Shown here: positions 5,615 to 38,533 of the stretch, in pieces
Layout: each line of letters starts with the position of its first letter
How positions within the stretch are numbered: the first letter of the stretch is position 1
The notes under the pieces: model-generated
The model's input: only the letters and a program-made list of their open reading frames with translations
What the model was told of the DNA's origin: nothing
Databases searched by the model: none
Assembly: GCA_000525025.1 (NCBI GenBank)
Contig: JCKJ01000001.1
Location: 2,108,001 to 2,172,000, forward strand
Direction: 5' to 3'
Length of the DNA: 64,000 nucleotides
Origin: Methylophilaceae bacterium 11
GTDB lineage: Bacteria > Pseudomonadota > Gammaproteobacteria > Burkholderiales > Methylophilaceae
Made by a program: the position numbers and the translations under genes

Positions 5615-5620
5615 GCACAG

Positions 5621-16868: not shown

Positions 16869-16896
16869 TCTATCACTACTAGTTGTAGCTACTATT

Positions 16897-17363: not shown

Positions 17364-17397
17364 AGTATACAGATCGGTATATACCGATCTGTATACT
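17364..17397. promoter_or_regulatory. Perfect 34-bp palindrome, probable operator
   Basis: The half AGTATACAGATCGGTAT is followed at once by its exact reverse complement. It lies about 65 bp upstream of the mxaD-like start in a divergent gap. Such GATCGGT-type symmetry is common for TetR-family operators, but no TetR gene is in the window. A symmetrical site of this length without mismatch is very unlikely by chance. Confidence 0.75.
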
Positions 17398-17463
17398 TAA
17401 CACTTATTTTATTCATGTATCTTAATTTTGGTAATTCTTTAAGATCACCACTAAGGAGTCGAT

Positions 17464-17985
17464 ATGAAATTTCACAATGCAATATTAGGTCTATTTTTCA
17501 GCGCATCACTGGTCGCAAATGCCGCAGATGCAAACAAACTCAAGGTTGAAGAAAAAGTTGAAGTCAATGCCAATGCTGCGCAGGTATGGGAAAAAGTGAA
17601 CAAATTTGGTGATTTAGGCGCATGGCATCCAGCAGTGGCAAACACCACTATTCAATCTGGTGCTGAAGCAAAAGTGGGGACCGTACGCGTACTCACCTTG
17701 CAAGATGGCGGCAAAATTACAGAGGAATTGAAAGCCTATGATACCAACAAAAAAATGTTTACTTACCGCATTATTGAAGGCGTACTTCCTGTCAGTCATT
17801 ATATCTCAACTGTACAAGTCACCTCTCTAGCATCTAATAAAACGCTAGTCACTTGGGTAGGGCATTTCCAACGCAAAGATTTATCTGCTACACCTGCACA
17901 GGGTCAAGATGATGCAGCAGCAGTGAATACAATCACTGCTGTATATCGTGCAGGCCTAGACAATTTAAAGAAAATATCTGAGTAG
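17464..17985 (+). CDS. mxaD: MxaD-like secreted SRPBCC-family protein
   Basis: The protein has 173 aa: a signal peptide (ILGLFFSASLVANAADA) then a START/polyketide-cyclase-like domain (VNANAAQVWEKVNKFGDLG, WHPAV, GTVRVLTLQDGGKITEEL). MxaD proteins are periplasmic and in methylotrophs aid electron flow between methanol dehydrogenase and its cytochrome. The nearby xoxF fits that role, but it could be another SRPBCC protein, so the symbol is provisional. AAGGAG before the ATG at 17464 fixes the start. The palindrome at 17364-17397 is its likely control site. Confidence 0.75.
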   Translation: MKFHNAILGLFFSASLVANAADANKLKVEEKVEVNANAAQVWEKVNKFGDLGAWHPAVANTTIQSGAEAKVGTVRVLTLQDGGKITEELKAYDTNKKMFTYRIIEGVLPVSHYISTVQVTSLASNKTLVTWVGHFQRKDLSATPAQGQDDAAAVNTITAVYRAGLDNLKKISE

Positions 17986-19754: not shown

Positions 19755-20684
19755 CTACTTCATGGTTCTTAATTTTGAGGCCACATAAGAAGCAGCGGCT
19801 GTTCTGGTTTCCACACCCAGCTTGGAAAACACATGCTCCAAATGCTTATTGACTGTTCTCGGGCTGGTGCCCAAAATATCGCCAATATCACGATTGGTTT
19901 TACCTTTGATCGCCCAATACAGCACTTCTGATTCGCGTTTGGTGAGACCAAAGGTGCTTGTCAGCGCTTGAATTTGGGCTTCATCAGACTCTTCACTCAG
20001 CAAAATAATCCACTGTTCATCACTGCTATCATCAGCAAGGCTCAAGGTTAAGCGACTAGAGCCTTTAATCATGTTCAACGCTTGCGTACGCTCAGCGTTG
20101 GCTTGCTGCATATTTTGCAACCAATTCAACATGGGCTCTGGCGTGGTGTCTGCAGCATGCAACCCACTTTCATAAAAATAGCGTTGCATCCATTGTCTGG
20201 CCAGTGGGCTTTGCCAGACAATTTTTCCGTCTTGCGGTGTAATCGCAATAGCCGCTTGGCCAAACGCATCCAGCGCACTGCGCGCTTGGTTCATGAGCTT
20301 GACCGTTTGCAGATGCGAGGCAATCCTAGCCAACACCTCTTTAGGTCGAATCGGCTTGGTCACATAATCCACCCCGCCCGCCTCAAAGCCAGCCGCCACA
20401 TGCTCAGCTTCAGTCAGCCCCGTCATAAAAATGACCGGGATATGCCGAGTCAGACTATTGGCTTTTAATTGGCGGCAGGTTTCAAATCCATCTATGCCGG
20501 GCATCATCGCATCCAGCAAGATAACATTGGGTTGCGCATCGTTCGCGCGTTGCAATGCCGTCTGCCCGCTATCGGCAACCAGTACCATATAGCCGGACTC
20601 ATCCAGTGCATCATGCAAATAGGCCAAATTGTCCAGCACATCATCTACGATGAGCACCGTGGGTGTTTGTGTAAGGGTATTCAT
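19755..20684 (-). CDS. Response regulator, REC-PAS-like-LuxR HTH
   Basis: The protein has 309 aa. A receiver domain (about 9-125) carries D58 in VILLDAMMPGIDG and the DD pair at 14-15. A middle part (about 140-240) looks PAS-like. The C-terminus is a LuxR/FixJ HTH (GLTKRESEVLYWAIKGKTN, then TVNKHLEHVFSKLGV). Its ATG overlaps the stop of the preceding permease-kinase gene by 4 bases, so the two are a cognate pair. Given the urea and amide genes upstream on the same strand, it is the likely transcription factor for their control; this is inference. Confidence 0.92.
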   Translation of the reverse strand: MNTLTQTPTVLIVDDVLDNLAYLHDALDESGYMVLVADSGQTALQRANDAQPNVILLDAMMPGIDGFETCRQLKANSLTRHIPVIFMTGLTEAEHVAAGFEAGGVDYVTKPIRPKEVLARIASHLQTVKLMNQARSALDAFGQAAIAITPQDGKIVWQSPLARQWMQRYFYESGLHAADTTPEPMLNWLQNMQQANAERTQALNMIKGSSRLTLSLADDSSDEQWIILLSEESDEAQIQALTSTFGLTKRESEVLYWAIKGKTNRDIGDILGTSPRTVNKHLEHVFSKLGVETRTAAASYVASKLRTMK

Positions 20685-23600
20685 TGTTTTACGTCTTCAA
20701 TATATTTTTTCACTGCTTCTAATTTAAATTGACCGACCAGTTGCTTCATTAATGCAATAAAGGATTGATATTGAGGGTTTAACTGCTCAATCTCATCCAG
20801 TTTTTGGTGTATGCCTTTGACATACCCCATATTGACCAGTGACAAAATATCCTGCAAATGATGCGACTCTGGCATTGTAATCGTATCGTCGCTCATTGCG
20901 TCAATGGTTGGTACAACTAGGTTACGTGTATCGTGATTTTCTTTTATCCACTCAATCGACAGCCTGCTGCCAATCCAATCCAGCAAGTCTTCTACATTCA
21001 CCGGCTTCACCATAAAGTCTTGGCTATCAATCCCTGCCGCATTTTCCAGATTTTTGTCGTATGCGTTAGCCGAGACAATAGCAATCGGGATATTGGAATG
21101 ATGCACTTTACGAATGATATAAGAAGCCTCCCAGCCATCCATCACTGGCATCGCCAAATCCATGAGGATGATATCCGGTTTAAACTGCTGATACATATCG
21201 ACACATTCTTTTCCGGTTGCCGCTTGTGCGACATCAAAGCCCAAAGGCGCAAGAATATTGATCACCAACTCCCGATCCACTTGCTCGTTATCTACCACCA
21301 GCACTTTGCGACGCAATCCACGATACCCTACTCGCTTACGGTAAACGGCAGGTTCTACCTCTACATCTTGTCGAATTTGTGATAAAAACAGGCGGATTTC
21401 AAACTGCGTGCCCTTACCTTGCTCGCTCTTAAAGTGAATCTCACCACCCATTAATTCTGTTAAGAGCTTGCTGATGGTCAGACCCAAACCGGTACCACCG
21501 ATATTGATTTGCTCTGCGGCACTGCCACGTTCAAATGGCTCAAATATCTTTTGATACTCGGAAGGTTTGATGCCAGGGCCAGTGTCTTGAATTTCGATAT
21601 GGGCGATTTCACGCGCATAACTGACGCGGAAAGTAATGCCGCCCTCTTTGGTAAATTTAACCGCGTTGCCCAATAAGTTAATAAGAATCTGCGTCAACCG
21701 TTTTTGGTCTGCACGCACCAAAGCGGGTAATTCTCCACGCTGTTCAAATTTAAAATAGAGACCTTTATTACGCGCTTGCAGTTCAAACATGCTGACAATT
21801 TGGTGAATAAACTCGGGGAACTTGAGTGGCTTGGTATCAAATGTGAGCTTGCCACTCTCGATGCGCGCAATGTCTAATGTCCCCTCAATCAGCGATAGTA
21901 AGTGCTCACCACTTCGACTGATGACACGTATCGCTTGGCGGCGATGCTCAGGGATAGATGCATCATTATCGAGCAATTGTGCGTAACCTAAAATACTATT
22001 GAGCGGGGTGCGTAACTCATGACTGATCCCCGTGATATAACGGCTCTTTGCTTTATTGGCTTGTTCGGCCAAATGTCTGGCCAACTGCAACTCAGTGTCG
22101 GTTTGTTTATGCAGATCAATTTCACGCAATAGCAAGCCGGTTTGTCGGTTAGACTCTTCTTGCGCCACACGCCGACTCTCGGTAGTGAGCACTAACCACC
22201 ACGCTACAATTCCACTAGCAAACACCAAGGCGGCAAACACTTTGAGATAGCCGCTACGTAGTTGCGGCAACAGCTCGGAGGCAGTGCCTTCTAATATCAA
22301 GGTCTCATGGAAGTAAATCAAACCAAGCACTGCACCAAAAAATCCTAAAGCAATGGTCATCAGCAGCAAATAATGAGCAACCCCGCCTTTGATATGCGGC
22401 CACAGCGACTTAGGCAGAAAAAACTTGTTCACGTCTATCCATTGTTGCGAGAGTTTTGCATGCGGCTTGCACGCATCATTGCAGCGTGCATCCAGACAGC
22501 AACACAAAGAGCAGATTGCACCCTGATATGCCGGACAGTGCGCCATGTCATCAGTCTCGTATTCTCGCTCGCACACCACGCATTTTTGCATGCGTTTAGT
22601 GGTGGGAAACACGAAAGGTTTACGTGCAATGTAGTAACGGCCCTTGGTCAGCCAAGCAATCAAGGGCGAAGTAATGAGCGCTGTACCCAAGGCAATAAAT
22701 GATGAGAACGCGGTCAGTGTCTCGCCAAATACCCCAGAGAACGCTGCAATCGAAATCGCCGACGCCAGAAACATGGTGCCGACGCCAACCGGATTGATGT
22801 CATATAAGTAAGCGCGCCTAAACTCAATGCCTTTGGGGCTGAGTCCCAACGGTTTATTAATCACCAAATCTGCCACTACTGCGGTAATCCAAGCAATAGC
22901 AATATTGGAGTACAAGCCTAGCACTTGCTCTAACGCTTTAAATACATCTAACTCCATCAGCATGATGGCAATGACCGCATTGAATACCACCCACACCACA
23001 CGCCCGGGATGACTATGCGTGAGCCGCGCAAAGAAATTAGACCATGCCAATGAGCCGGCATAGGCATTGGTCATATTCACTTTAATTTGTGATACCACCA
23101 CAAATAAAGCGGTCACGGCCAAGGCTACATCGTATGAGCTAAATGCATAGTTAAAGCCAACCAAATACATGTGTGTGGGGTTTACTGCAGATTGAAACGA
23201 CATATCACTTTGTATCACCAGGTAAGCTAGCAGTACGCCGCCAAGCATTTTGAGCATGCCTAAGAATACCCAGCCTGGCCCAGCCATGAGCACGCCAATG
23301 TTCCAACGCCATCGATTTTGCACCGTTTTGTCCGGCATAAACCTTAGAAAGTCGACCTGTTCACCAATTTGGGGAATAAGTGCTACGCCAACCGCTGTTG
23401 CTGCACCAAACATGTGCAAGTTAAACTCGCCCGCTTGCCCCGATACACCGGCAAACATACTAAGTTTAGATAAGATATCCGGATCATGATGCAAGATGGC
23501 AATGAATGGCAGAAACATCAGTACCAGCCAGATAGGCTGCGTAATCATTTGAATGCGGCTAATCAACGTAATCCCGTGCGTCACCAGCGGAATCACCACC

Positions 23601-24112
23601 AGCGCGCTCACCAGATAACCAATATAGAGCGGCATTTGGAAGTACAACTCTAGCGCATAGGCCATGATGGCGGCTTCTAAGGCAAATAAAATAAAGGTGA
23701 ACGAGGCATAGATAAACGAGGAAATCGTGGAACCGATATAGCCGAAGCTGGCACCACGGGTGAGCAAATCCATGTCTAAGCCATATTTAGCTGCGTAATA
23801 ACTAATCGGCAAACCGGTAAGAAAAATAATTGCGCCAACTGCCAATATCGCCCAAAATGCGTTGATAAACCCATAATTGACAGCAATCGTGCCGCCAATT
23901 GCTTCTAACACCAAAAATGAGATTGCACCTAGCGCGGTGTTAGATACGCGTAAAATTGACCATTTACGAAAGGAGCGCGGCGTAAAACGTAAAGCATAAT
24001 CTTCGATAGATTCGTTAGCGACCCAGGTATTGTAGTCGCGACGAATCTTCACAATACGCTGTGTGGGCTCTGCCTGCGGCGCTTCGCGCGCATTGAGTTC
24101 TGCTGTTGCCAA
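20681..24112 (-). CDS. NCS1 permease-histidine kinase-receiver fusion
   Basis: The protein has 1143 aa. Residues about 30-480 are a 12-helix NCS1 (cytosine/purine/allantoin type) permease. Then come a cysteine-rich putative zinc segment (C511, C514, then CCCLDARC), two more TM helices (about 575-660), a HisKA domain with H698 (GISHELRTPLNS), an HATPase domain with GTGLGLTIS, a receiver with D985 (IILMDLAMPVMDGWEA), and a helical tail that may be Hpt-like. A transporter used as sensor is suggested: it may read nucleobase, allantoin, urea or similar solutes. The regulator gene follows with a 4-bp overlap. Confidence 0.92.
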   Translation of the reverse strand: MATAELNAREAPQAEPTQRIVKIRRDYNTWVANESIEDYALRFTPRSFRKWSILRVSNTALGAISFLVLEAIGGTIAVNYGFINAFWAILAVGAIIFLTGLPISYYAAKYGLDMDLLTRGASFGYIGSTISSFIYASFTFILFALEAAIMAYALELYFQMPLYIGYLVSALVVIPLVTHGITLISRIQMITQPIWLVLMFLPFIAILHHDPDILSKLSMFAGVSGQAGEFNLHMFGAATAVGVALIPQIGEQVDFLRFMPDKTVQNRWRWNIGVLMAGPGWVFLGMLKMLGGVLLAYLVIQSDMSFQSAVNPTHMYLVGFNYAFSSYDVALAVTALFVVVSQIKVNMTNAYAGSLAWSNFFARLTHSHPGRVVWVVFNAVIAIMLMELDVFKALEQVLGLYSNIAIAWITAVVADLVINKPLGLSPKGIEFRRAYLYDINPVGVGTMFLASAISIAAFSGVFGETLTAFSSFIALGTALITSPLIAWLTKGRYYIARKPFVFPTTKRMQKCVVCEREYETDDMAHCPAYQGAICSLCCCLDARCNDACKPHAKLSQQWIDVNKFFLPKSLWPHIKGGVAHYLLLMTIALGFFGAVLGLIYFHETLILEGTASELLPQLRSGYLKVFAALVFASGIVAWWLVLTTESRRVAQEESNRQTGLLLREIDLHKQTDTELQLARHLAEQANKAKSRYITGISHELRTPLNSILGYAQLLDNDASIPEHRRQAIRVISRSGEHLLSLIEGTLDIARIESGKLTFDTKPLKFPEFIHQIVSMFELQARNKGLYFKFEQRGELPALVRADQKRLTQILINLLGNAVKFTKEGGITFRVSYAREIAHIEIQDTGPGIKPSEYQKIFEPFERGSAAEQINIGGTGLGLTISKLLTELMGGEIHFKSEQGKGTQFEIRLFLSQIRQDVEVEPAVYRKRVGYRGLRRKVLVVDNEQVDRELVINILAPLGFDVAQAATGKECVDMYQQFKPDIILMDLAMPVMDGWEASYIIRKVHHSNIPIAIVSANAYDKNLENAAGIDSQDFMVKPVNVEDLLDWIGSRLSIEWIKENHDTRNLVVPTIDAMSDDTITMPESHHLQDILSLVNMGYVKGIHQKLDEIEQLNPQYQSFIALMKQLVGQFKLEAVKKYIEDVKQ

Positions 24113-24236: not shown

Positions 24237-24268
24237 TACGTTAAATAACGTATATCACGTGACGTGAT
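24237..24268. promoter_or_regulatory. Two adjacent palindromes upstream of the permease-kinase gene
   Basis: TACGTTAAATAACGTA (24237-24252) is a perfect 16-bp palindrome, and ATCACGTGACGTGAT (24254-24268) is symmetric around TGA. They lie about 125-155 bp before the kinase start, in the 201-bp gap after hupE. They probably bind a regulator, possibly the product of the operon itself. Confidence 0.45.
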
Positions 24269-24904: not shown

Positions 24905-25549
24905 TTACAACATTAATCCTTGTTTTTCAATAAACCGCACTATCTCTTCTAAGCCTTGACCAATCTTGAGATTGGTAAAAATAAATGGGCGTTCTCCGCG
25001 CATGCGTTTCGCATCTCTATCCATGACTTCCAGTGAGGCACCCACCATCGGCGCTAAGTCAATTTTGTTAATCACCAACAAATCTGATTTGGTAATACCA
25101 GGCCCGCCTTTTCTGGGAATTTTCTCACCAGCCGCTACATCAATCACATAAATCGTTAAGTCAGAAAGTTCTGGGCTGAACGTCGCTGCAAGGTTATCGC
25201 CACCGCTTTCCACAAATACGATATCTAAGGTTTGAAAGCGTTGACTGAGTTGCGCGACGGCTTCTAAATTCATTGAAGCGTCTTCTCGTATCGCCGTGTG
25301 TGGGCAACCGCCAGTTTCTACGCCAATAATGCGCTCTGGCGATAAGGCTTCGTTGCGGGTCAAAAATTCCGCATCTTCCTTGGTGTAAATATCATTGGTC
25401 ACCACGGCAATGTTATAGACATCGCGCAGGCGCTTGCACAAGGCCAACGTAAGCGCAGTTTTACCAGAGCCGACTGGTCCACCAATGCCGACACGTAAGG
25501 GCTCTTGATAGCTTACTGCTGGCACTTTTTCTTTTAATTGCACTGTCAT
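24905..25549 (-). CDS. ureG: Urease accessory GTPase UreG
   Basis: The 214-aa protein has the P-loop [17 protein letters not shown] (about 21-37), [14 protein letters not shown], the nickel/zinc CPH motif in [25 protein letters not shown] and the NKIDLAP guanine-binding motif. UreG uses GTP to deliver nickel from UreE to the UreDFG-apourease complex in the cytosol. GAGG precedes the ATG. Length and motifs are normal, and it follows ureF after 21 bp. Confidence 0.98.
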
Positions 25550-25570
25550 TTTTTACCTCTACGAACTCAA

Positions 25571-26281
25571 TTAAGACCTAAATAATCTGCTGTACTGCGT
25601 TTCGTGTCTGCACCCTGCGATACTAAGCAAAGGATTTAAGTTGCTGATGGCTTCATCTGGCAACTGCATGGCATCTGCAACGACTTGTGGTAGCGATTGC
25701 CCCAAATGCAGCAAGATTTTTTGCCCGGCTACTTGGCCCAATGGCACTGTTTTCATCGCGGCACTGGCCTGATTTTCTAGCCACCCCCACACGTAGCCTT
25801 GTAATGCATCTTGCACATGGATTTGCCAATGCTGTGCAATGGCGGCATAGATGGTTGGGAAAGCCGGCGACTGCAAACTATGTATTTGACCCATCAAGGC
25901 ATCGGGCATTTCTTGCAAGTCATTAAGCAAACGACATAGCGAATAGCCCATTTGGCGTGTCTCAGCCAAGGCTTCCGCCGTATCCCGCCCCGCTTGATAA
26001 AACGCATCCCAAGTTTGCACAGCTTGCATATCACCCACCTGCCACGCGCCATATAAACGATGCAGCACAGGCAACTCAAACTGCGCTTGGTAAATATGCA
26101 GCACATCACCAATCCAAGTTTCTGCACTGGCTAAATCATGCACCTCGCCACATTCAATCGCCCATTCTAAGCCTTGCGAATAACTATATGCGCCTACCGG
26201 CAGCATGGGACTCGCCAATTGCAATAAGCGACTCAGCGCCAGACTTGATTTCAGCACATGTGATTGTGGTGCATTAGCCAT
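25571..26281 (-). CDS. ureF: Urease accessory protein UreF
   Basis: The 236-aa all-helical protein has the family start LLQLASPMLPVGAYSYSQGL followed by EWAIECGEV. Conserved stretches AGRDTAEALAETRQMGYSL and the C-terminal PLLSIAGCRHETQYSRLFRS confirm it. UreF links UreG to UreD and apourease during nickel insertion. The start overlaps the ureE stop by 8 bp, so they are coupled. Confidence 0.97.
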   Translation of the reverse strand: MANAPQSHVLKSSLALSRLLQLASPMLPVGAYSYSQGLEWAIECGEVHDLASAETWIGDVLHIYQAQFELPVLHRLYGAWQVGDMQAVQTWDAFYQAGRDTAEALAETRQMGYSLCRLLNDLQEMPDALMGQIHSLQSPAFPTIYAAIAQHWQIHVQDALQGYVWGWLENQASAAMKTVPLGQVAGQKILLHLGQSLPQVVADAMQLPDEAISNLNPLLSIAGCRHETQYSRLFRS

Positions 26282-26789
26282 GTTTGAGTCGACGCTTTGA
26301 CTGTTGCTTTAATTGTTCCAGGGGACGTAGATTGGTCATCGCGTCGTCATCATGTCCATGGCGATGACCACCACCGTAAGCACCGGCTTCTGGCTCAAAC
26401 GGCGCTTGGCTCTCTGTGACTTGCATGCCCAAACCCAGCAACATTTCTTTGAGTACATAATCTTGCTCTAAACGCAGCCAGCCATCGCCTACTTGCAGTG
26501 GCACATGGCGGTTGCCCAAATGATAAGCGGCACACATCAAAGCCTGTGTGCTTGCTGCGGTCACATCACATACAGGCTCTTGCGCAGAGACGATTTGTAT
26601 TACCGTGCCGGATTCTGATTTCAATAAATCGCCACCACGCAGAATAATGCCCCGGTCTAAAAACAAAGCCGCTTCCGTGCCGGATTTCAATATGACCCGT
26701 AATCGACTTTTCTGGCGTTTATCAAACGGCAGTTCTAAGTAGTCGTCAATGTGCGTAGCTAGCGTAATGCGTTCAGTAATATGTAGCAT
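26274..26789 (-). CDS. ureE: Urease nickel chaperone UreE
   Basis: The 171-aa protein has a peptide-binding N-terminal domain (RQKSRLRVILKSGTEAALFL) and the metal domain ending in NRHVPLQVGDGWLRLE. The tail is GGGHRHGHDDD, a short histidine-rich nickel-binding end, followed by a basic extension. UreE collects nickel and passes it to UreG. It lies 2 bp after ureC. Confidence 0.97.
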   Translation of the reverse strand: MLHITERITLATHIDDYLELPFDKRQKSRLRVILKSGTEAALFLDRGIILRGGDLLKSESGTVIQIVSAQEPVCDVTAASTQALMCAAYHLGNRHVPLQVGDGWLRLEQDYVLKEMLLGLGMQVTESQAPFEPEAGAYGGGHRHGHDDDAMTNLRPLEQLKQQSKRRLKHG

Positions 26790-26791
26790 GA

Positions 26792-28495
26792 TTAAAATAA
26801 GAAGTAACGTTGCGCCATCGGCAATACTGTGGCCGGTTCACAGACCAAATCCATGCCATCGGCCAATACGCGATATGTTTCCGGGTCTACATCAATCGTC
26901 GGCATCCAGTCATTGTGAATCATGTCTTTCTTTTTGACATGGCGCGTGCCGCTAATACCCACCAATGGTTTTTGCAAGCCAAGTGCAGCTATTTCTGGAT
27001 TGCTTAATGCGGCTTGCGAGACAAAGGTTACCGCCGTTTTTAAACCACCTGCATAGGCACCAAACATAGGGCGATAATGCACGGGTTGCGGTGTTGGGAT
27101 AGACGCATTCGGGTCGCCCATGGCAGCGGCAGCGATCATGCCGCCTTTTAATATGGTAGAAGGTTTAACGCCAAAAAAGGCAGGGCGCCATAGCACTAAA
27201 TCCGCCAGCTTACCGACTTCTATCGAACCCACTGTATGCGCAATGCCATGCGTCAGCGCAGGGTTAATGGTGTATTTAGCAATGTAACGTTTGATTCTGA
27301 AGTTATCGTTACGCTCAGAATCTTCTTTAAGTGGACCGCGTTGCACTTTCATTTTATGTGCAGTCTGCCAAGTGCGAATAATCACTTCGCCCACACGCCC
27401 CATGGCTTGCGAGTCTGAGGACATCATAGAAAACGCACCTAAGTCATGCAGAATATCTTCTGCTGCAATGGTCTCGCGGCGGATGCGGCTTTCAGCAAAC
27501 GCAATATCCTCGGCAATAGCGGGATCTAAATGATGACAAACCATGAGCATATCCAAATGCTCATCAATGGTATTCACGGTAAATGGCCGAGTCGGGTTGG
27601 TGGAAGATGGCAACACATTGGCATAACCAGCTGCTTTGATAATATCTGGCGCGTGACCACCGCCAGCACCTTCGGTATGGAAGGTATGAATGGTGCGGTC
27701 TTTAAATGCACCAATGGTAGTTTCCACAAAGCCAGACTCATTCAAGGTGTCAGAATGGATCGCCACTTGCACATCCATTTCTTCTGCCACGCTTAAACAG
27801 TTATCAATGGCGGCAGGTGTGGTGCCCCAGTCTTCATGTAGTTTTAAGCCTATGGCACCTGCCGTGATTTGTTCACGCAAAGGTTCTGGCAAACTGGCAT
27901 TGCCTTTGCCTAAAAAACCCAAGTTCATGGGGAAAGCATCGGCCGCCTGTAACATGCGGTGAATATGCCAAGGTCCTGGCGTACAAGTGGTAGCAAAGGT
28001 GCCGGTGGCTGGGCCCGTACCGCCGCCTATCATGGTCGTCACGCCCGACATCAACGCTTCTTCAATTTGTTGTGGGCAAATAAAGTGAATATGCGTATCA
28101 ATGCCGCCGGCGGTGACGATCATGCCCTCACCTGCAATAATCTCAGTGCCTGCGCCAATCGCTATGGTCACTTCTGGCTGGATATCCGGATTGCCTGCTT
28201 TACCAATCGCAGAAATACGCCCAGCTTTAATACCAATATCGGCCTTCACCACGCCCCAATAGTCGATGATTAACGCATTGGTAATCACCGTATCAGCCAC
28301 ATCAGCAGACACCAACTGCCCTTGCCCCATGCCGTCACGTATCACTTTACCGCCACCAAACTTCACTTCCTCGCCGTACACGGTGTAGTCTTTTTCTACC
28401 TCCACCCAAAGCTCAGTATCGGCTAGGCGCACCCTATCGCCCACGGTGGGACCGAACATTTCGGCATAGGCTTGTTTGTCTATTTTTAAAGTCAT
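26792..28495 (-). CDS. ureC: Urease alpha subunit (catalytic)
   Basis: The 567-aa protein is full length and has every expected active-site element: H135 and H137 ([13 protein letters not shown]), the carbamylated lysine K218 ([12 protein letters not shown]), H247, H273, the mobile flap MVCHHLD with C320 and H321, and D361. It hydrolyses urea to ammonia and carbamate in the cytosol using two nickel ions. ureB is 136 bp upstream, a wider gap than usual. The chaperones ureE, F and G follow tightly. Confidence 0.99.
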
Positions 28496-28631
28496 TCAAC
28501 TCAATCCTTGAAAAATCTCAAAGCGAAAGTAAGCGTAGGCGAAAAGGCAGCGACAACACCGGAGTTTACATAGAGTAAATGAGGATGTTGGCGGTGACTT
28601 TTTAACACCAGATGACTGAGCGGCTGATTTT
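28496..28631. repeat. ureB-ureC spacer with a hairpin-bearing repeat-like sequence
   Basis: 136 bp between two genes that are normally a few bases apart. It holds GTTTACATAGAGTAAAT (small hairpin) and on the minus strand a CCGGTGTTGTCGCTGCCTTTT segment. A looser version of the same layout is in the ureA-ureB spacer (28944-29079). This may be a dispersed intergenic repeat of the genome; that needs a whole-genome comparison. Confidence 0.35.
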
Positions 28632-28943
28632 TCATTCCGAAAGAGCACCCATCACTCTGCCTGCAAAGCCATATACTTTTCTATCACCCGCTAACGCTAC
28701 CAATTCAACGGTGCGCGTTTGACCTGGCTCAAAACGGACTGCCGTACCAGCTGCGATATTCAAACGAAACCCATAAGCCGATTTCCGATCAAAATCGAGC
28801 GCATCATTGGTTTCAAAGAAATGATAATGTGAGCCGACTTGAATAGGCCGGTCGCCTTTGTTCGCCACATGCAAGGTAACGACCTGACGCCCTACATTCA
28901 AGAGAATGTCGCCGCTGTCTATTTTCATTTCACCTGGAATCAT
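28632..28943 (-). CDS. ureB: Urease beta subunit
   Basis: The 103-aa protein is the standard length. It starts [16 protein letters not shown] and contains [20 protein letters not shown] and the [17 protein letters not shown] stretch. It forms the urease core with UreA and UreC. AAGAGG stands upstream of the ATG. Both flanks have spacers of about 136 bp that are unusual for a urease operon. Confidence 0.98.
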
Positions 28944-29079
28944 AACAACCTCTTATATCTAAAAATGATTAGCACTAAGCCAGACAAGACACGCGCAAAA
29001 AAGACCGACGCGGCATATACAAAATATGTAAGGAGGGATTGTTTGCAAGCAACGCAGTATGGTGACGTGATTATCATTT
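28944..29079. repeat. ureA-ureB spacer with a hairpin
   Basis: 136 bp, containing TACAAAATATGTA (inverted arms TACA/TGTA) and an AAGACCGACGCGG segment that loosely matches the arrangement in the ureB-ureC spacer. No gene or terminator is evident. Confidence 0.35.
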
Positions 29080-29382
29080 TTATGGGATTGGGTGATGAAC
29101 GGTGACTAGCTTCGTCCCATCTGGAAACGTCGCTTCAATTTGAATATCGGGAATCATCTCCGCAATACCCTCCATGACATCATCACGACTCAGTAGTGTC
29201 GCGCCATAACTCATGAGTTCAGCGACCGTTTTACCATCGCGTGCACCCTCCATAATGGCGGCAGAGATGTACGCAATGGCCTCTGGGTAATTGAGCTTTA
29301 ATCCACGTCCTTTACGACGCTCTGCTAACAATCCTGCAGTAAATATCAGCAGCTTATCTTTTTCTCTAGGAGTCAGTTCCAT
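29080..29382 (-). CDS. ureA: Urease gamma subunit
   Basis: The 100-aa protein begins [20 protein letters not shown] and ends [15 protein letters not shown], both family signatures. The middle has [20 protein letters not shown]. It is the smallest structural urease subunit, here separate from ureB as in most proteobacteria. It follows ureD after 45 bp. Confidence 0.98.
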
Positions 29383-29427
29383 CTAACGCATCTCATGCTT
29401 CATGTTGATTGATTATGTATTCAAACT

Positions 29428-30354
29428 CTATGTATTCCAGATTCTTGGCCTAGTAACTTCACGACCCGCATACCAAGGGCGTAGTAGCTGCCACAATTGC
29501 TCAAAATACTGTTTGGCGGTTTGTGCAGATTGCCCTACATAGCGTGCTGAAAATACCTCTGGCAACGCAGTGACTCCATACCGTGCTTGCAAATCCAATG
29601 CCAAATTTGGTTGTACTGCCTTGCACGCTTCAATCACTTCTACCGGTACAGTACCAGCCACCACGATAAAGCTTGCAGATACTGGATTGCCACTTAATCC
29701 TACGATAGATTGCATACATCGATTATGTGGCGTCAATGCACCCACTTCGCGCCAAATGAGTTTTTGTTGCCTATAAATGGCAAGATTTTGGTGCATATGC
29801 CCAGTTTGCCAGCGCTCTTGTTGTGCTTGCCTGCCAAAACAAACAATATCCCATGCTGCGTAACGGGCATCTGCCGCTAAATCAATGCGGGCAGAAAAAT
29901 CCACTTGCGCACCATCGAATAGAATATTCTCTTGTGGCAACCACTCTAGGCAAGCATTGTCTGCCAAAGAAAAATGTAAATGTTGACTGGCGGGCTGCCC
30001 ATTGGCTTTGTACCATTTGCCTGCGCCTGGTGTGGTCAACAAAGCGTGCGCTTGTGGTTCAAGCGTTACCTCTAATGTGAGCGCATCACCACCCGCAACA
30101 CCACCCGGCGGATGCACTATTACACCGTGACAGACGGCTTGCCCTTCTGGATGCAAACTCTTTTGCAATACCAAAGGGCCACGGTGCTGCTTAAACGCTA
30201 GAAAACTACGCGACCCTTGGTTTACGTCTTGCTGCTGCGCGACTTGATGATGCGCAAATCTAAGGGTTAAATGTGCCGCCCAATGCCTGGGAGGGGTACC
30301 TAGCACTTGGGCTAAGCATTCAGTTAACTCACTTTTGATTTGCGCATCATCCAT
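29428..30354 (-). CDS. ureD: Urease accessory protein UreD
   Basis: From the ATG at 30354 the protein has 308 aa; a TTG at 30372 gives 314 and neither start has a strong ribosome site. Family marks are LTLRFAHHQVAQQQ, VIVHPPGGVAGGDALTLEV, ALLTTPGAGKWYKANG and CLEWLPQENILFDGA. UreD is the scaffold that holds UreF and UreG on apourease. It opens the urease part of the cluster, 41 bp after urtE as listed from its longer form. Confidence 0.95.
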   Translation of the reverse strand: MDDAQIKSELTECLAQVLGTPPRHWAAHLTLRFAHHQVAQQQDVNQGSRSFLAFKQHRGPLVLQKSLHPEGQAVCHGVIVHPPGGVAGGDALTLEVTLEPQAHALLTTPGAGKWYKANGQPASQHLHFSLADNACLEWLPQENILFDGAQVDFSARIDLAADARYAAWDIVCFGRQAQQERWQTGHMHQNLAIYRQQKLIWREVGALTPHNRCMQSIVGLSGNPVSASFIVVAGTVPVEVIEACKAVQPNLALDLQARYGVTALPEVFSARYVGQSAQTAKQYFEQLWQLLRPWYAGREVTRPRIWNT

Positions 30355-30413
30355 CGCCACATCATGCCACAAAATCTAACTTTACGAGTACAGCCAAATA
30401 CAACCACCCATGC

Positions 30414-31103
30414 TTAAACAGACAGATACCCTTTGATTTTGGCCGCATCGACTTCGCCACGTTTATCTTCATGAATGAACTTGCCTTTATCAATCACAAT
30501 GATGCGATCCGCCACCTCCATGGTAAAGCTCAGCACTTGCTCGGAAACGATAATGGTAATCTCACGCATTTTACGTATCTCATTCAACACGCGGGCAATG
30601 TCTTTAATAATGGAAGGTTGAATCCCTTCCGTTGGTTCATCCAATAACAGCACTTTTGGATTGGTGACTAAAGCACGTGCAATAGCCAACTGTTGCTGCT
30701 GACCACCCGACAAATTGCCGCCTTTGCGTTTACGCATATCAAACAAGACAGGAAACAACGCATAAATATCTTCAGGGATTTCACGCGATTTTGATTTTTC
30801 CAAACCCGTTTCAATGTTTTCCTGCACTGTCATGCTGGGGAAAATCATACGGCCTTGCGGCACATAGGCCAAGCCTCTCGCTACACGTTGATAAGTGTCC
30901 GCACCTTGTAAACTTACGCCATCGACCATGGCTTTTGTCGATTTGCTTGGCAGAATGCCCATCAACGATTTGAATAAGGTGGTTTTACCCATGCCGTTAC
31001 GGCCCATGATGGCCAGTGTTTCGTTTTTATTGGCGGTAATATTCAAGCCATGAATGACTTGGCTTTGGCCATAGCTGACTTGCAAATTTTCAATTTCAAA
31101 CAT
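30414..31103 (-). CDS. urtE: ABC transporter ATPase UrtE (urea/amide)
   Basis: The 229-aa ATPase has Walker A GRNGMGKT, Q-loop YVPQGR, signature LSGGQQQQLAIARAL and Walker B VLLLDEPTEGIQP. It is the LivF-like second ATPase of a branched-chain amino acid-type (HAAT) importer. AGGAG before the ATG gives the start. The EG after DEPT and the place next to ureD fit UrtE. Confidence 0.95.
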   Translation of the reverse strand: MFEIENLQVSYGQSQVIHGLNITANKNETLAIMGRNGMGKTTLFKSLMGILPSKSTKAMVDGVSLQGADTYQRVARGLAYVPQGRMIFPSMTVQENIETGLEKSKSREIPEDIYALFPVLFDMRKRKGGNLSGGQQQQLAIARALVTNPKVLLLDEPTEGIQPSIIKDIARVLNEIRKMREITIIVSEQVLSFTMEVADRIIVIDKGKFIHEDKRGEVDAAKIKGYLSV

Positions 31104-31128
31104 GCGGGTTCTCCTAATGACCTATTAA

Positions 31129-31872
31129 TTAATGACCTAAATACACTTCAATCACTTTTTCATCTTCTTGCACTTTGTCCATAGAGCCCTCGGCCAAAAT
31201 CTTGCCTTGGTGCAATACGGTCACTTTATGGGCGATCTTTTTGACGAATTCCATGTCATGCTCAATCACCAGCACAGAGCGGTTGTTGCAAATTTTATTC
31301 AGTAACTCGGCTGTTTGGTCACGTTCTTTTGCACTCATGCCTGCCACTGGCTCATCCAGCATCAGCAACTCTGGATCTTGCATCAGCAACATGCCGATTT
31401 CCAGCCATTGCTTTTGGCCATGACTCAATAAGGCCGCTTCTAAATCCAGTAAGTCAGTGAGCATGATTTCTTCTGCCACTTTACGTACTTGTGCTTCAAC
31501 CTCGGCCGTGCGCTTAAATGTCAGGCTACCAAACACGCCACGCCCTTTGGGGTAGGACACTTCCAAGTTCTGATACACCGATAAGTTCTCGTAGATCGAA
31601 GGCGTTTGGAATTTACGGCCTACGCCTTCACGCACAATTTCGTGCTCAGAAAGTTTGGTGAGCTCTTTATTCATGAACTTGATAGAACCTGATGTGGACT
31701 TGGTTTTACCGCAAATCAAATCCAGCACCGTGGTTTTACCTGCACCGTTTGGCCCAATCACCACACGTAACTCGTTTTTATCGATGTACATGGTGAGGTT
31801 ATCTACCGCCTTAAACCCATCAAAGGATACCGTCAGGTCTTCGATGGACAATACAAAGTCTGTATTACTCAT
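31129..31872 (-). CDS. urtD: ABC transporter ATPase UrtD (urea/amide)
   Basis: The 247-aa LivG-like ATPase has Walker A GPNGAGKT, LSHGQKQWLEIGMLL as a modified signature and Walker B LLMLDEPVAGMS. The LSHGQ form in place of LSGGQ is characteristic of UrtD. Its start overlaps the urtC stop by 4 bases. Confidence 0.95.
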   Translation of the reverse strand: MSNTDFVLSIEDLTVSFDGFKAVDNLTMYIDKNELRVVIGPNGAGKTTVLDLICGKTKSTSGSIKFMNKELTKLSEHEIVREGVGRKFQTPSIYENLSVYQNLEVSYPKGRGVFGSLTFKRTAEVEAQVRKVAEEIMLTDLLDLEAALLSHGQKQWLEIGMLLMQDPELLMLDEPVAGMSAKERDQTAELLNKICNNRSVLVIEHDMEFVKKIAHKVTVLHQGKILAEGSMDKVQEDEKVIEVYLGH

Positions 31873-33086
31873 GCTTTTGCTCCCTTCATATTGGCCACTT
31901 TGGCGGGTTTCTCTTTTTTAGCTACAGGCGCTTCAATGTGTGACAGCGTAGGCTCAATCTTTTCCGGTTCTGGCGTGTCGTCATAAAACCGTTTCATGAA
32001 CTTGAGTTTTCTAGCATGTTGATCCCACAACCCTGCTAAACCATTTGGGAAGAACATCACCACCGCCATGAACAAGCCGCCCATCAGGAACAACCACAAT
32101 TCTGGATACGTTTCTGAGAAGAAGGTTTTACCGTAGTTGACTAACAAGGTACCGTATACCGCACCAATCAAGGAGATACGCCCGCCTACCGCACAGAAAA
32201 TCACCATTTCAATGGATGGCACAATGCCCACAAACGAAGGTGACATGAAGCCGACCTGCAAGGTAAACATGGCGCCACCAATCGCAGAAATCATGGCAGC
32301 GATACAAAAGATAAAGATTTTGAAATCAGATACGTCGTAGCCAGAGAAGCGCACGCGCTCTTCTTTATCGCGCATCGCCAATAACAACATGCCAAACTTA
32401 CTGGTTAAAATGTATCTGGAAAGCAAGATGCAACCGAATAACAAGATGCCATTGACGTAGTACAAGATGTATTTTGCGCTATCGGTACGTGTATCCCAAC
32501 CCAACATGGTTTTGAGGTCAGTAATACCGTTTACGCCACCAGTTAAGCCTTGTTGACCGACAATCAAGATACTTAAAATTAAGGCAATGGCTTGGGTAAT
32601 GATGGCGAAGTACACACCGCCTACACGACGCTTGAACATGGCAAAACCGATAATGTAAGCAAATAAGGCAGGGATGACCAAGATAGCCAATATGGTTAAA
32701 GGCAAGCTCTTGAACGGCTCCCAAAACCATGGAATGGAAGTCAACTGGTTCCAGTCCATAAAGTCGGGGATGCCAGGTGTGGTTTGGATTTTGGTACTAA
32801 TCGGATCTGAGGCTTCTAACTTCATGAACATTGCCATGCCGTATCCACCTAGACCAAAGAAGATGCCTTGGCCTAAACTCAGAATCCCACCGTTACCCCA
32901 CAACAACACCAAACTCACTGCAACAAAGGCGTAGGTCAGGTATTTACCGACTAAATTCAGCCTGAATATATCGACACCAAGTGGTAGGGCGACAAAGATA
33001 ACGGCAGCCAGCACCGCTAACCCTAACAACCCTTTCTTGCCTCCCAGCAGTTCACTCGAACTTAACTTACTTAATATGGCATTCAT
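31869..33086 (-). CDS. urtC: ABC transporter permease UrtC (urea/amide)
   Basis: The 405-aa LivM-like permease has about ten hydrophobic segments, with GNGGILSLGQGIFFGLGGYG and the coupling region FSGYDVSDFKIFIFCIAAM. A C-terminal cytoplasmic tail of some 50 residues rich in K, E and P is extra. In Methylophilus the same position is filled by fmdF. It follows urtB after 87 bp. Confidence 0.95.
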   Translation of the reverse strand: MNAILSKLSSSELLGGKKGLLGLAVLAAVIFVALPLGVDIFRLNLVGKYLTYAFVAVSLVLLWGNGGILSLGQGIFFGLGGYGMAMFMKLEASDPISTKIQTTPGIPDFMDWNQLTSIPWFWEPFKSLPLTILAILVIPALFAYIIGFAMFKRRVGGVYFAIITQAIALILSILIVGQQGLTGGVNGITDLKTMLGWDTRTDSAKYILYYVNGILLFGCILLSRYILTSKFGMLLLAMRDKEERVRFSGYDVSDFKIFIFCIAAMISAIGGAMFTLQVGFMSPSFVGIVPSIEMVIFCAVGGRISLIGAVYGTLLVNYGKTFFSETYPELWLFLMGGLFMAVVMFFPNGLAGLWDQHARKLKFMKRFYDDTPEPEKIEPTLSHIEAPVAKKEKPAKVANMKGAKA

Positions 33087-33173
33087 CTATGTTCTCCTCA
33101 TCTACGTCAAACAAAATTTGTGGCACTACTTACTATTTGTAATACTTGCTTTTGATCACACTTGCTTGCAGTA

Positions 33174-34091
33174 TTACTTACGTAGTTTCGAAGCAAACAA
33201 ACCTTCTGGCTTCATCATCAAAATCCCTACAATCACCAACAATGTAGACACCTTACCCATCGAGCTAGTCATAAAGAACTGCAAGATTGATTGTGCTTGT
33301 GCAATACCGAACGCGGAGGCGATCGTACCCATCAAGCTGGCTGCACCACCAAACACCACCACCATAAAGCTATCTACAATATAGAGTGTGCCTGTGGTTG
33401 GGCCGGTAGAAGCAATCGTGGTAAACGCAGCACCTGCAATCCCTGCAATCCCACAGCCTAAGGCAAAGGTCATACGATCCACTTTACTGGTATTGATACC
33501 AACAGCGCCTGCCATCACACGGTTTTGCACGGTGGCACGTACACGTAGACCCCAGCGTGAGCGATACATAAACAAGTACACCCCAGCCGTGACAATGATG
33601 GCTAAGAACATCACGAATACCCCGTTAATGGGAATATCAATGTCTGGTGTTGGCTTAAACGAACCCAACATCCATTCTGGCAACTCAGCACTCACTTCTT
33701 TTGCGCCAAACGTTGAGCGGAAGATTTGTTGCATCACCAAACTCAAGCCCCAAGTCGCTAACAGCGTATCGAGTGGCCGTTTATACAGATGCCGTATCAT
33801 GATAAATTCAATGAAGTACCCCACTGCAAACGCTAGGGCGAATGCGATGAGAATCGCAAACACGAAGTAATAGTTTACAAAGCCATAATTGGCCGCCAAC
33901 TTGGAAATCATCACCGTGGTATAGGCACCAATTGCCATAAACTCACCGTGTGCCATATTAATTACACCCATTTGCCCGAAAATAATTGCGAGACCAAGTG
34001 CCATGAGGAGCAACACTGTAAACATGCTCAGGCCAGAGAAACCCTGCATCACCACAATATTGCCTATATCTGCCATTGAATAACCAAACAT
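33174..34091 (-). CDS. urtB: ABC transporter permease UrtB (urea/amide)
   Basis: The 305-aa LivH-like permease has about eight helices, with FGQMGVINMAHGEFMAIGAY and the conserved GIAGIAGAAFTTIAS. It lacks the long N-terminal periplasmic extension that some UrtB proteins carry. It corresponds to fmdE in the Methylophilus formamide cluster. A 149-bp gap separates it from urtA. Confidence 0.94.
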   Translation of the reverse strand: MFGYSMADIGNIVVMQGFSGLSMFTVLLLMALGLAIIFGQMGVINMAHGEFMAIGAYTTVMISKLAANYGFVNYYFVFAILIAFALAFAVGYFIEFIMIRHLYKRPLDTLLATWGLSLVMQQIFRSTFGAKEVSAELPEWMLGSFKPTPDIDIPINGVFVMFLAIIVTAGVYLFMYRSRWGLRVRATVQNRVMAGAVGINTSKVDRMTFALGCGIAGIAGAAFTTIASTGPTTGTLYIVDSFMVVVFGGAASLMGTIASAFGIAQAQSILQFFMTSSMGKVSTLLVIVGILMMKPEGLFASKLRK

Positions 34092-34240
34092 ACCGGCCTC
34101 CTACTCAAAACCTACTAATGAAATAAACTGAACCCACACATCTCAACCTACTACTATTTGCCTGCAAATTGCGGCAACCTGATCACAGACTGCCGCATAT
34201 TGACTACTCAGGTGCGTGGTCTAAACCACGCATCAGACAA

Positions 34241-35485
34241 CTATTGATAACCTTTTGGGAATGGATCAGGTTTGATGTAACCAGAGGTGTAAACCACTTT
34301 CGCTTGACCATCTTTACCCCATTGACCAATACGTAATTTAGTCGTTAAGTGATGGTTAGCTTCTACAGTCACAGGGCCTTCTGGTGCATCTTTGAACTCA
34401 TAACCTGGTAAAGCAGCTTGTACTTTGTCTACGTCAAAGCTACCTGCACGCTCAACCGCAGCTTTGTACAACCATGGGCCTAAGTAAGCAGCTTGTGTCA
34501 CGTCACCAATCACAGAGTTAGGACCCCATTTCTTTTTAAACTCAGCCACAAATTTCTTGTTGGCCGGGTTATCTTGAGATTGGAAGTACTTCATGGCTGA
34601 GTAGAAACCAGCTAAGTTTTCACCGCCAATGCCTAACACTTCATCCTCAGTCACTGAGATGGTTAACATCGTTTGTTTAGCTGAATTTAAACCAGCAGCA
34701 TTCAGTTGTTTAAACCATGCTACGTTACTACCACCTACTACAGCTGCGTAAATCACGTCTGGTTTTTTCAGTTTGATTTTGTTAATCACAGAACCAAATT
34801 GTGTATCACCCAAAGCAATGTACTCTTCACCCACCACTGTGCCTTTTAAGTGTTGCTCAATGTGTTTACGGGCAATTTTCATCGAAGTACGTGGCCAGAT
34901 GTAATCAGAACCAATCAAGTAGAACGTTTTCGCTTTCTTCTCTTTAGCAATCCAATCCAACCCTGCAAGAATCTGTTGTGTTGCTTCTTGGCCTGTGTAG
35001 AACACGTTTTTAGATTGCTCTAAACCTTCATAGAACGTTGGGTAGAACAGTAAGCCATTCTCTTTTTCAAATACCGGTAATGCCGCTTTACGTGAAGCAG
35101 ATGTCCAGCAGCCCATAACCGCAGCCACTTTATCTTTTACCAATAGTTTTTTAGATTTCTCAGCAAATGTTGGCCAGTCTGAAGCACCGTCTTCTTGAAT
35201 CACTTCAATTTTGCGGCCCAAAATACCACCCATCGCATTGATTTGCTCAATCGCTAATTTTTCAGCTTGGATAGAACCGGTTTCGCTGATCGCCATCGTG
35301 CCGGTAGCTGAGTGCAAGATACCTACTTTGACTGTGGTATCCGTCACGGCTAAGCCTGTAGTGTTCACTTTAGCGGTTGGAAAATCCGCTGCCAAAGCAT
35401 GGCTGGAAATCACACCCACTGCTAGCAGTGCGCCAACTAGCGCGCCACCCGCTTTCATAAAACTACGTCTGTTAAAGGTACTCAT
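34241..35485 (-). CDS. urtA: Tat-exported substrate-binding protein UrtA/FmdD
   Basis: The 414-aa type I periplasmic binding protein starts with a twin-arginine signal (NRRSFMKAGGALVGALLAV) cleaved near SHALA, so it is probably exported folded. The mature part has VKVGILHSATGTMAISE, the GCWTSASRKAALPVFEKENG stretch and FYTGQEATQQILAGLDWI typical of urea and short-chain amide binders. It delivers substrate to UrtBC. Which of urea or formamide is preferred cannot be told from sequence alone. AGGAG precedes the ATG. Confidence 0.95.
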   Translation of the reverse strand: MSTFNRRSFMKAGGALVGALLAVGVISSHALAADFPTAKVNTTGLAVTDTTVKVGILHSATGTMAISETGSIQAEKLAIEQINAMGGILGRKIEVIQEDGASDWPTFAEKSKKLLVKDKVAAVMGCWTSASRKAALPVFEKENGLLFYPTFYEGLEQSKNVFYTGQEATQQILAGLDWIAKEKKAKTFYLIGSDYIWPRTSMKIARKHIEQHLKGTVVGEEYIALGDTQFGSVINKIKLKKPDVIYAAVVGGSNVAWFKQLNAAGLNSAKQTMLTISVTEDEVLGIGGENLAGFYSAMKYFQSQDNPANKKFVAEFKKKWGPNSVIGDVTQAAYLGPWLYKAAVERAGSFDVDKVQAALPGYEFKDAPEGPVTVEANHHLTTKLRIGQWGKDGQAKVVYTSGYIKPDPFPKGYQ

Positions 35486-35581: not shown

Positions 35582-35920
35582 CTAATGCCCAAGCATCCAA
35601 GGTCTAGCGGTTTTTTTGGTTTGTACTTGCAGCGCAGCTTTGCCAGTGTCTTCGTTCACTTTAGTAGTGGTTTTGCAGGTGTGTGACCCGGTGCAACCGC
35701 AACTGGAACGTCGACCAACTTTAGGATCATGTGCAGACTTTTCATTGCGCTCATGCGCCTCACGTTGCTGCTTGCCCATGATGGCTAAGCGTGGGACTGA
35801 CATAATGCGTGGGCTTTCAGCGCCGCACTCTTGGCAAAAAGCAGGTTCACTGCATTCACTCATTCTGCGTAGCGCACTAAACACGCCGCAGCTGTCACAT
35901 TCATATTCATACATGGGCAT
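35582..35920 (-). CDS. fmdB: FmdB-family zinc-ribbon protein
   Basis: From the ATG at 35920 (GGAG 7 bases upstream) the protein has 112 residues. It starts MPMYEYECDSCGVF with the CxxC of the FmdB zinc ribbon and a second CxxC in FCQECGAE, then a PRLAIMG segment. A cysteine-rich motif (SSCGCTGSHTC) is near the end. FmdB was named as a putative regulator of the Methylophilus amidase. It follows fmdA after 11 bp. Confidence 0.93.
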   Translation of the reverse strand: MPMYEYECDSCGVFSALRRMSECSEPAFCQECGAESPRIMSVPRLAIMGKQQREAHERNEKSAHDPKVGRRSSCGCTGSHTCKTTTKVNEDTGKAALQVQTKKTARPWMLGH

Positions 35921-35931
35921 TTGCAAACTCC

Positions 35932-38336: not shown

Positions 38337-38533
38337 GTCTACTCTCCCATAGAGTCAAAAAAACAGGTTTAGAAAAATTTGGCATGTGCATTTCAACTTC
38401 AATGCATTTGTCACGGAGCAAGATTAACGATTGGTAGGAGTGAGTTAAATACGTCATATTGCGTAGTCAGTTTCTGCGCAACTGGCTGTATATTGTGCAC
38501 ATCAAAGATGAATAAAATGGAAGTACTACGTCA

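Follow-up and report, generated by a model that had tools for sequence, protein, structure and literature searches.

A predicted NCS1-like receptor kinase and its candidate urea/amide regulon in Methylophilaceae bacterium 11 and related bacteria

The window analysed here, a stretch of 64,000 nucleotides from Methylophilaceae bacterium 11 (contig JCKJ01000001.1, positions 2,108,001 to 2,172,000), carries a gene for a hybrid histidine kinase with an N-terminal part resembling carriers of the NCS1 family, referred to below as the sensor, and the gene of a response regulator that overlaps it by 4 nt. An initial annotation, made from the sequence alone, had read the carrier, a cysteine-rich segment, the kinase and the receiver as one chain of 1143 residues overlapped by a LuxR regulator. 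Both statements were borne out by the open frame 20681..24112 (-), by the Pfam matches of its kinase and receiver domains, and by the Response_reg and GerE domains of the regulator, GerE being the regulator class of NarL. The sensor gene opens with a plausible TTG start codon, and an AGGA-type ribosome site was recognised by eye just 5' of it. The two genes and the parts of the sensor are as follows.

20681..24112 (-), sensor, hybrid histidine kinase with NCS1-like N-terminal carrier part, 1143 aa, TTG start
22613..24007 (-), NCS1-like carrier part with LeuT-type fold, residues 36-500 (predicted model, Foldseek, VIA, hhalign to CodB)
22469..22582 (-), eight-cysteine segment, residues 511-548 (alignment of 157 sensors)
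22178..22384 (-), predicted extra membrane hairpin, about residues 577-645, leading into the pre-kinase coiled coil (model helices)
21851..22051 (-), HisKA, residues 688-754, phospho-acceptor H698 (Pfam)
21383..21709 (-), HATPase_c, residues 802-910 (Pfam)
20978..21304 (-), receiver Response_reg, residues 937-1045, with D985 and K1036 (Pfam)
19755..20684 (-), partner response regulator, receiver and GerE/LuxR (Pfam domains)

Of 199 candidate stretches that a search of genome contigs yielded, 188 were confirmed as relatives, and the best 80 of these are the named loci of the following sections. Sensor matches were found in 53 of 398 genomes drawn evenly from the phylum, in one of them (G644) by a 94-residue fragment only, as well as in 17 of 369 genomes of a class sample and in 27 of 61 near relatives, with the window's own genome counted in all three samples. 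From 51 of the 53 matching genomes of the phylum sample 56 copies were fetched, leaving out the window itself, the G644 fragment, and L176, a distant protein of G602 that has no kinase. With respect to the signalling residues, H698 is present in all 157 aligned sensors, D985 in 152 (H in one, a gap in four) and K1036 likewise in 152 (a gap in five). Of the 80 named loci, 76 have the regulator next to the sensor, and the remaining four (L027, L032, L044, L076) end at or just after the sensor. Among the 56 phylum copies the two adjoin in 48 by a strict rule, some of the misses being artefacts of that rule (in L192 by 9 bases beyond the distance limit) and others including the sensors of L177 and L178, which are flanked by other regulators. 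These two (L177 8501-11182 (-) and L178 8665-11361 (-)) are variants that end after the kinase, lack a receiver and are followed by a different response regulator. One genome (L130) has two sensor copies, 4904-8368 (+) and 14409-17813 (+), about 6 kb apart and with two regulators.

Because both Pfam and the sequences of the PDB miss residues 18-500, the nature of the carrier part had to be addressed by fold and profile comparison. The predicted model of residues 18-690 has a predicted local distance difference test score (pLDDT) of 74.7 and a predicted template modelling score (pTM) of 0.71. In a Foldseek search with the carrier model Mhp1 and CodB occupy ranks 1-5, and the VIA Z scores are 33.8 for CodB (398 residues, 3.5 Å) and 26.8-28.6 for Mhp1, the next entry having 24.1. 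In line with this, a profile-profile alignment by hhalign against CodB and 15 relatives gave a probability of 98.4% and an E value of 9e-15 over 402 columns. Averaged over the columns of an alignment of 37 sequences, identity within the carrier part amounts to 78%, and at this degree of conservation chance can be excluded. A weak match to DUF7942 was found in 5 of the 37 aligned carrier parts (best E value 0.0004), and of two stand-alone relatives tested one passed the NCS1 model PF02133 with 31.5 bits at a cut-off of 23.5. By predicted fold and profile the carrier part is thus NCS1-like and belongs to a divergent branch. Of the "full NCS1 transporter" proposed initially the family likeness stands in this form, with no match to NCS1 in Pfam or among PDB sequences.

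The predicted fold is shared with CodB and Mhp1, to which the fused kinase adds a further difference besides the failure of the Pfam NCS1 model and the absence of CodB's substrate and sodium residues. In CodB, Gln105 and Trp108 are given as cytosine residues and Thr278/Thr279 as the sodium-site pair of transmembrane helix 8 (TM8) in passages of PMC9379551. The former align with T139 and F/L142 and the latter with I/V345 and N346 of the sensors, with a TM8 register that may be off by about one, and neither pair is kept. Instead, eleven residues (T139, E146, Q248, E251, Q252, D254, Q342, K344, N346, N349 and Y351) are the same throughout the 157 sensors and all stand-alone carriers (see below) that have sequence at the position, and might form a putative binding site common to both. 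The two groups differ in TM1. At residue 69 the 156 sensors that cover the position (one has a gap) all have L, M or I, and 12 of the 13 carriers that cover it have D; at residue 70 all 156 sensors have E, the carriers having Q or F.

The cysteine-rich segment, initially placed at residues 511-549, was located at 511-548, its eight cysteines 511, 514, 526, 534, 537, 538, 544 and 548 being invariant in all 157 aligned sensors, while C539 is not. All eight are also kept in seven stand-alone carriers, namely those linked to fmdA and the one of L236. The seven urease-linked carriers have retained 511, 514, 534 and 537 and lack 526, 538, 544 and 548. As the same four cysteines are absent together, the segment probably comprises two four-cysteine metal sites, the second of which would be dispensable in one carrier branch; all seven urease-linked carriers come from one genus, and the loss therefore probably reflects one evolutionary event. 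A model of the segment alone (pLDDT 71.8, pTM 0.53) had no significant match among PDB structures by Foldseek (best E value 0.28), many of the top rows being cross-brace fingers of the FYVE, RING or PHD kind. The idea that the segment is a linker to the kinase was dropped, since the stand-alone carriers carry the same segment. Residues 500-680 gave no Pfam match, with the presence of a STAC model in the library not checked and the hairpin not searched alone; the hairpin is seen as helices in the model, and its placement in the membrane is putative.

Kinase-less relatives were found at 14 of the fetched loci. In a tree of 74 sensors, 13 of these carriers and one distant NCS1 protein, from which the partial carrier L245 and sensors more than 85% identical to another had been removed, all sensors form one clade with a support of 100/100 and the carriers lie outside it; the order among the carriers is unsure because the outgroup branch is very long. 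Six of the 14 stand-alone carriers are encoded directly before fmdA-fmdB, divergent from the sensor and in the usual place of the ABC transporter, seven others each stand at the end of a urease operon, and one (L236) has neither position. Their placement in fmdA-fmdB and urease operons suggests that they carry formamide, other short amides and urea, and the proteins of L128 10592-12442 (+), L235 8858-10738 (+), L129 9091-10776 (-), L234 9614-11344 (-) and others are candidate new urea/amide carriers. The distant NCS1-like protein of L176 9783-14369 (+), with 27% identity, is followed by what appears by eye to be a nitrilase-type hydrolase and by an AmiC/UrtA-like binding protein, and could possibly be a further amide-related NCS1 carrier.

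In the window the sensor was initially described as lying directly after urease, and indeed ureG and a hupE/ureJ-type gene precede it on the same strand with a gap of 201 nt, which contains the sensor's own predicted operator. The same-strand series 5' of the sensor comprises hupE/ureJ, ureGFECBAD, an ABC transporter, fmdB, fmdA and a porin, as listed here together with the two predicted operators.

24237..24252 (no strand), predicted operator TACGTTAAATAACGTA, centre about 132 bp upstream of the sensor start codon
24314..24898 (-), hupE/ureJ-type gene
24905..30372 (-), urease genes ureD, ureA, ureB, ureC, ureE, ureF, ureG
30414..35485 (-), amide/urea ABC transporter genes: binding protein 34241-35485 (PF13433 in Pfam), then urtB, urtC, urtD and an urtE-like gene
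35582..35926 (-), fmdB zinc-ribbon protein (PF09723)
35932..37155 (-), fmdA formamidase (PF03069)
37203..38336 (-), fmdC-type porin, first gene of the predicted target operon (gene order)
38450..38465 (no strand), predicted operator TACGTCATATTGCGTA, centre about 121 bp upstream of the fmdC porin start

The names of the urease and hupE/ureJ genes and of urtB, urtC, urtD and the urtE-like gene are what we take them to be from their sequences, and the porin 37203..38336, which has no Pfam match, is named from its place in what we presume to be an fmdCAB gene order.

With respect to the distribution of such neighbours, 53 of the 56 phylum copies have urease, three or more urt genes, or fmdA no farther than 10 kb away; urt genes accompany 46 of the copies, fmdA 37 and urease 13. 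Of the three exceptions, L263 and L279 are cut by contig ends, and the stretch of L278 also contains urtB and urtA, the latter preceded by an operator. Homologues with unrelated neighbours, which the initial annotation had named as the observation that would speak against it, are therefore not what this sample contains. Among the best 80 named loci, urease genes occur in 50, urt or porin genes in 8 and neither in 22, the last group consisting of L013 with hupE only, L053 with urtA by a looser rule and 20 others, mostly of Rhodocyclales/Zoogloea types; when 15 of the 20 genomes with such an unlinked sensor were checked, urtA was found elsewhere in 11 and at the threshold used not in the other four. 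In the named loci the urease genes are collinear with the sensor in Methylophilaceae and Methylophaga and divergent from it in relatives of Acidovorax, Rhizobacter and Variovorax. In addition, a binding protein of the FmdD type (at least 68% identity) is encoded by 38 of the 398 phylum genomes, all of which belong to the 53 with a sensor match (hypergeometric P = 3e-41, relatedness not corrected for); since related genomes are not independent samples, such P values give orders of magnitude only.

Further evidence comes from the promoters. When 57 divergent promoters were dereplicated and searched for inverted repeats, 31 were found to contain TACG-N8-CGTA, any four-base dyad reaching at most 9 in five shuffles, and 16 to contain TACGTC-N4-GACGTA, with at most 2 in shuffles. 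The conserved site TACGTCA-N2-TGACGTA is thus predicted to mark the target promoters. In the window TACG-N8-CGTA occurs twice. A matrix trained on other genomes gives 20.8 for the match preceding the sensor gene and 23.5 for the one preceding fmdC, with which the fmd series opens; the next site of the window scores 11.3 and the best one in five shuffles 13.0. Two or more matches also occur in 10 of 100 dinucleotide shuffles of the window, and the evidential weight of the two sites therefore lies in their position and score and not in their count.

Outside the training set a score of at least 15 is reached by 49 of 124 sensor promoters, as compared to 3 of 6200 shuffles, with 22 of 26 in Methylophilaceae and 4 of 4 in Methylophaga; for many of these sensors the gene is not arranged divergently to a target. 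A scan of 154 loci, 2.96 Mb in all, gave 116 sites scoring at least 15, training sites included, and 110 of them are upstream of a target-type gene, in contrast to one site in shuffled loci. As a control, 40 urtA copies of sensor-less genomes were chosen among the matches listed, one of which (L357, 183 bases) was too short; none of the remaining 39 promoters reaches 12, the best scoring 8.3. All 39 are of the UrtA type and not of the FmdD type, so that they are fairly compared with UrtA-type promoters of sensor genomes. Of these, 5 of 9 linked to the sensor reach 15, and among 20 second UrtA-type copies in sensor genomes five reach 12 and three reach 15, all five in genomes with the sensor by urease and the one in G768 about 8 kb from its own sensor. 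Sensor-linked promoters of the FmdD type reach 15 in 30 of 35 cases, some of them part of the training set.

Among the 15 unlinked-sensor genomes checked, a site scoring at least 15 is found upstream of urtA in all 11 that bear urtA, in L464 about 1.3 kb before it; three of the 11 have an FmdD-type gene, and these also have UrtA-type copies. By matches, 14 of 17 of the urtA type have such a site, the three below 15 being a contig fragment without gene start (L466) and two matches of 34-35% identity that are probably other binding proteins (L469, L470). The presence of the operator in 11 of 11 cases ties the sensor to nitrogen genes in trans as well as when linked.

In the window's own genus, 49 distinct exact sites were found in 21 of 22 genomes, and a comparison of coordinates places an exact site just upstream of 20 of 20 sensors. 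Another 20 sites are of the fmdC kind, 13 of them, including that of the window, confirmed beside fmdC and the other seven assigned by spacing and sequence only. Five sites directly precede an operon for an amiE-type amidase and an AmiC/UrtA-like binding protein (L445, L446, L447, L449, L450; PF00795 and PF13433 confirmed in one of the five), and four lie elsewhere, in L448 inside a long frame, in L451, and twice in the window's genome, once of these before nirB. A genome identified here as that of M. methylotrophus has operators before the sensor and before fmdC.

Taken together, the gene pair is quite probably a carrier-derived urea/amide receptor kinase with its regulator, a two-component system controlling this regulon, and by comparison across genomes it probably switches on genes for uptake and breakdown of urea and amides in many bacteria. 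The initial proposal of a sensor for the nitrogen cluster gains support from the neighbourhoods and from a predicted operator that the sensor shares with nitrogen genes, linked and in trans. The architecture, the fold, the single clade of kinase-fused forms, the neighbourhoods and the operator with its tie to sensor presence were computed directly; the ligand, the direction of the signal, the binding of the operator by the partner and the activation rather than repression of the targets are what we infer. As the nearest kinase-less carriers sit with urease or formamidase, the likely ligand would be urea or a short amide and not the nucleobases or hydantoins usual for NCS1, which refines the earlier suggestion that the sensor may sense the solute of the carrier it resembles.

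According to the mechanism proposed, a carrier-fold receptor descended from NCS1-like urea/amide carriers would bind urea or a small amide and undergo a conformational change of its carrier part, which the cysteine segment, with probably two metal sites, and the membrane hairpin would relay to the coiled coil and the kinase. Upon autophosphorylation at H698 the phosphate would pass to D985 of the sensor's own receiver and/or to the LuxR/NarL-type partner, which would bind the TACGTCA-N2-TGACGTA sites preceding fmdC and the sensor gene and in this way switch on the genes of the porin, of formamidase, of the amide/urea ABC transporter and, further along the same series, of urease. A wider evolutionary scenario, which is offered tentatively and has somewhat less than an even chance of being correct, assumes an NCS1-like urea/amide branch whose stand-alone members would be hitherto undescribed carriers belonging to urease and formamidase operons, one fusion to a kinase with loss of transport via TM1 residues 69-70, and a resulting protein acting purely as a receptor, with a two-metal cysteine domain and a dedicated TACGTCA-N2-TGACGTA regulon.

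A number of observations weigh against the interpretation as a urea/amide receptor. Neither the PDB sequence search with the carrier part nor Pfam, PF02133 included, found an NCS1 match for the window protein, the latter not for the 37 aligned carrier parts either, and PF02133 had no match in the whole genome of the window. The 14 kinase-less loci stem from only two genera, and for 22 of the 80 named loci the rule applied gave no hit to urease, urt, fmdA or a porin within the fetched stretch. Regarding the operator, the number of its matches in the window is not rare by the shuffles mentioned, only 49 of the 124 untrained sensor promoters have a site of at least 15, 4 of the 26 Methylophilaceae loci are without one before the sensor, and scores remain under 15 in 5 of 35 FmdD-type and 4 of 9 UrtA-type sensor-linked promoters and under 12 in 15 of 20 second UrtA-type copies. 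With the strict exact pattern TACGYYANNTRRCGTA no more than 2 of the 15 unlinked-sensor genomes gave a match, a number below that for the reversed control; the match in G898 precedes an FmdD-type urtA. The support is comparative, as the literature searched contained no expression, binding or other biochemical experiment on the sensor.

Two further points, which likewise weigh against the main interpretation, would suit a kinase that reads nitrogen status, ammonium or a general signal, its carrier part being an anchor or sensing something other than urea or amides. The fmd cluster is reported to be repressed by high ammonia (in passages of PMC10781810), which could mean such a reading, and in the genome of the window a strong site scoring 25.4 (L321 10454-10475, G000:C1:400454) precedes a nitrite reductase gene of the nirB type. 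However, the carrier part is strongly conserved, with the 78% identity given above, the sites concentrate on urea/amide genes, and none of the extra sites inspected in other genomes of the genus (the five amidase sites, L448 and L451) precedes a nitrite reductase gene, so that this explanation is unlikely. As a further member of the regulon nirB was only noted, without a similar case in the other genomes of the genus. More serious, if still the less probable view, is that of a true transceptor, as debated for CbrA, in which the NCS1-like part would have kept the ability to transport urea or amides, with the kinase responding to this transport and not to static binding; the SLC5 part of CbrA transports histidine (passages of PMC13022988), and the putative site residues are common to sensors and stand-alone carriers. 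In turn, the two groups differ at TM1 residues 69 (L/M/I versus D) and 70 (E versus Q/F), and an ABC transporter or a separate carrier for uptake adjoins most sensors.

As the fold is nearest to CodB and Mhp1, the NCS1-like part might alternatively sense a nucleobase, hydantoin or allantoin as an upstream source of urea. This is most improbable given that CodB Gln105 and Trp108 align with Thr and Phe/Leu and Thr278/Thr279 with Ile/Val and Asn (the register perhaps being off by one), and no nucleobase or allantoin genes stood out among the gene lists inspected, of which no systematic search was made. Since the link between regulator and site comes from co-occurrence and regulator class, the operator could also belong to a different, co-occurring regulator, with the sensor pair controlling something else. 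Yet the sites precede the sensor gene itself and urtA in trans, are absent from 39 of 39 sensor-less urtA promoters and share their 7-2-7 layout with NarL sites as described in passages of PMC9314961, the partner being of the LuxR/NarL class, which makes this a very improbable alternative.

Compared with known systems, the urea/amide receptor proposed here would add an NCS1-like case to the carrier-derived kinases. CbrA of Pseudomonas, an SLC5-STAC-PAS-histidine kinase transceptor according to passages of PMC13022988, likewise has a LeuT-fold carrier part fused in one chain to a histidine kinase and concerns nutrient control of nitrogen and carbon genes. It differs in its SLC5 and not NCS1-like carrier part, whereas in the sensor a cysteine segment and a membrane hairpin follow this part, the hybrid kinase has a receiver, the partner is of the LuxR/NarL type in place of the sigma-54 regulator CbrB, and the likely ligand is urea or amides. 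The ammonium sensor kinase of Kuenenia, in which an ammonium transporter domain is fused to the kinase (PMC5764959, in part), similarly uses a nitrogen-source carrier domain as sensor, although the carrier family is Amt/Rh and the ligand another one. MetT, described in passages of PMC13390362 as an NCS1-family carrier of metformin, can be set beside the sensor by description as handling a non-ring nitrogen compound, but it is a carrier and not a sensor. NarL sites consist of two inverted heptamers with a 2-base spacing (7-2-7; passages of PMC9314961), and their layout and the GerE class of the regulator are found here too, with a different heptamer, TACGTCA, with urea/amide genes as predicted targets and with a regulator that is the partner of a carrier-fold sensor.

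For M. methylotrophus the fmd cluster, named fmdCABDEF in the review PMC10781810, is reported there to be induced by formamide and urea, and the passages concerned mention only a putative positive regulator within the cluster. Because its genome has operators before the sensor and fmdC, the sensor pair is, as judged from sequence comparison, a strong candidate for this induction, so that sensor, regulator and sites can now be named in an organism of known physiology. No NCS1-kinase fusion was described in the literature searched by title and beginning of the abstract, 'NCS1' occurring in passages of the kinase review PMC8399564 only within a thesis title, and no named sensor for the formamide/urea induction of fmd in Methylophilus was found in the literature searched. 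The genome paper PMC13296017 has a hybrid kinase and a LuxR regulator beside urtABCDE, to which its passages assign no function. Beyond the predicted new urea/amide carriers, the sensors and their stand-alone relatives offer a natural comparison of carrier and receptor, with a common putative binding site and a different TM1.

Finally, a small lipoprotein-like gene at 38534-39196 (+) of the window is divergent from the fmdC-type porin and, as judged by eye, is apparently kept beside the porin in distant loci (L039 14197-14727 (-); L147 12550-13170 (-)).

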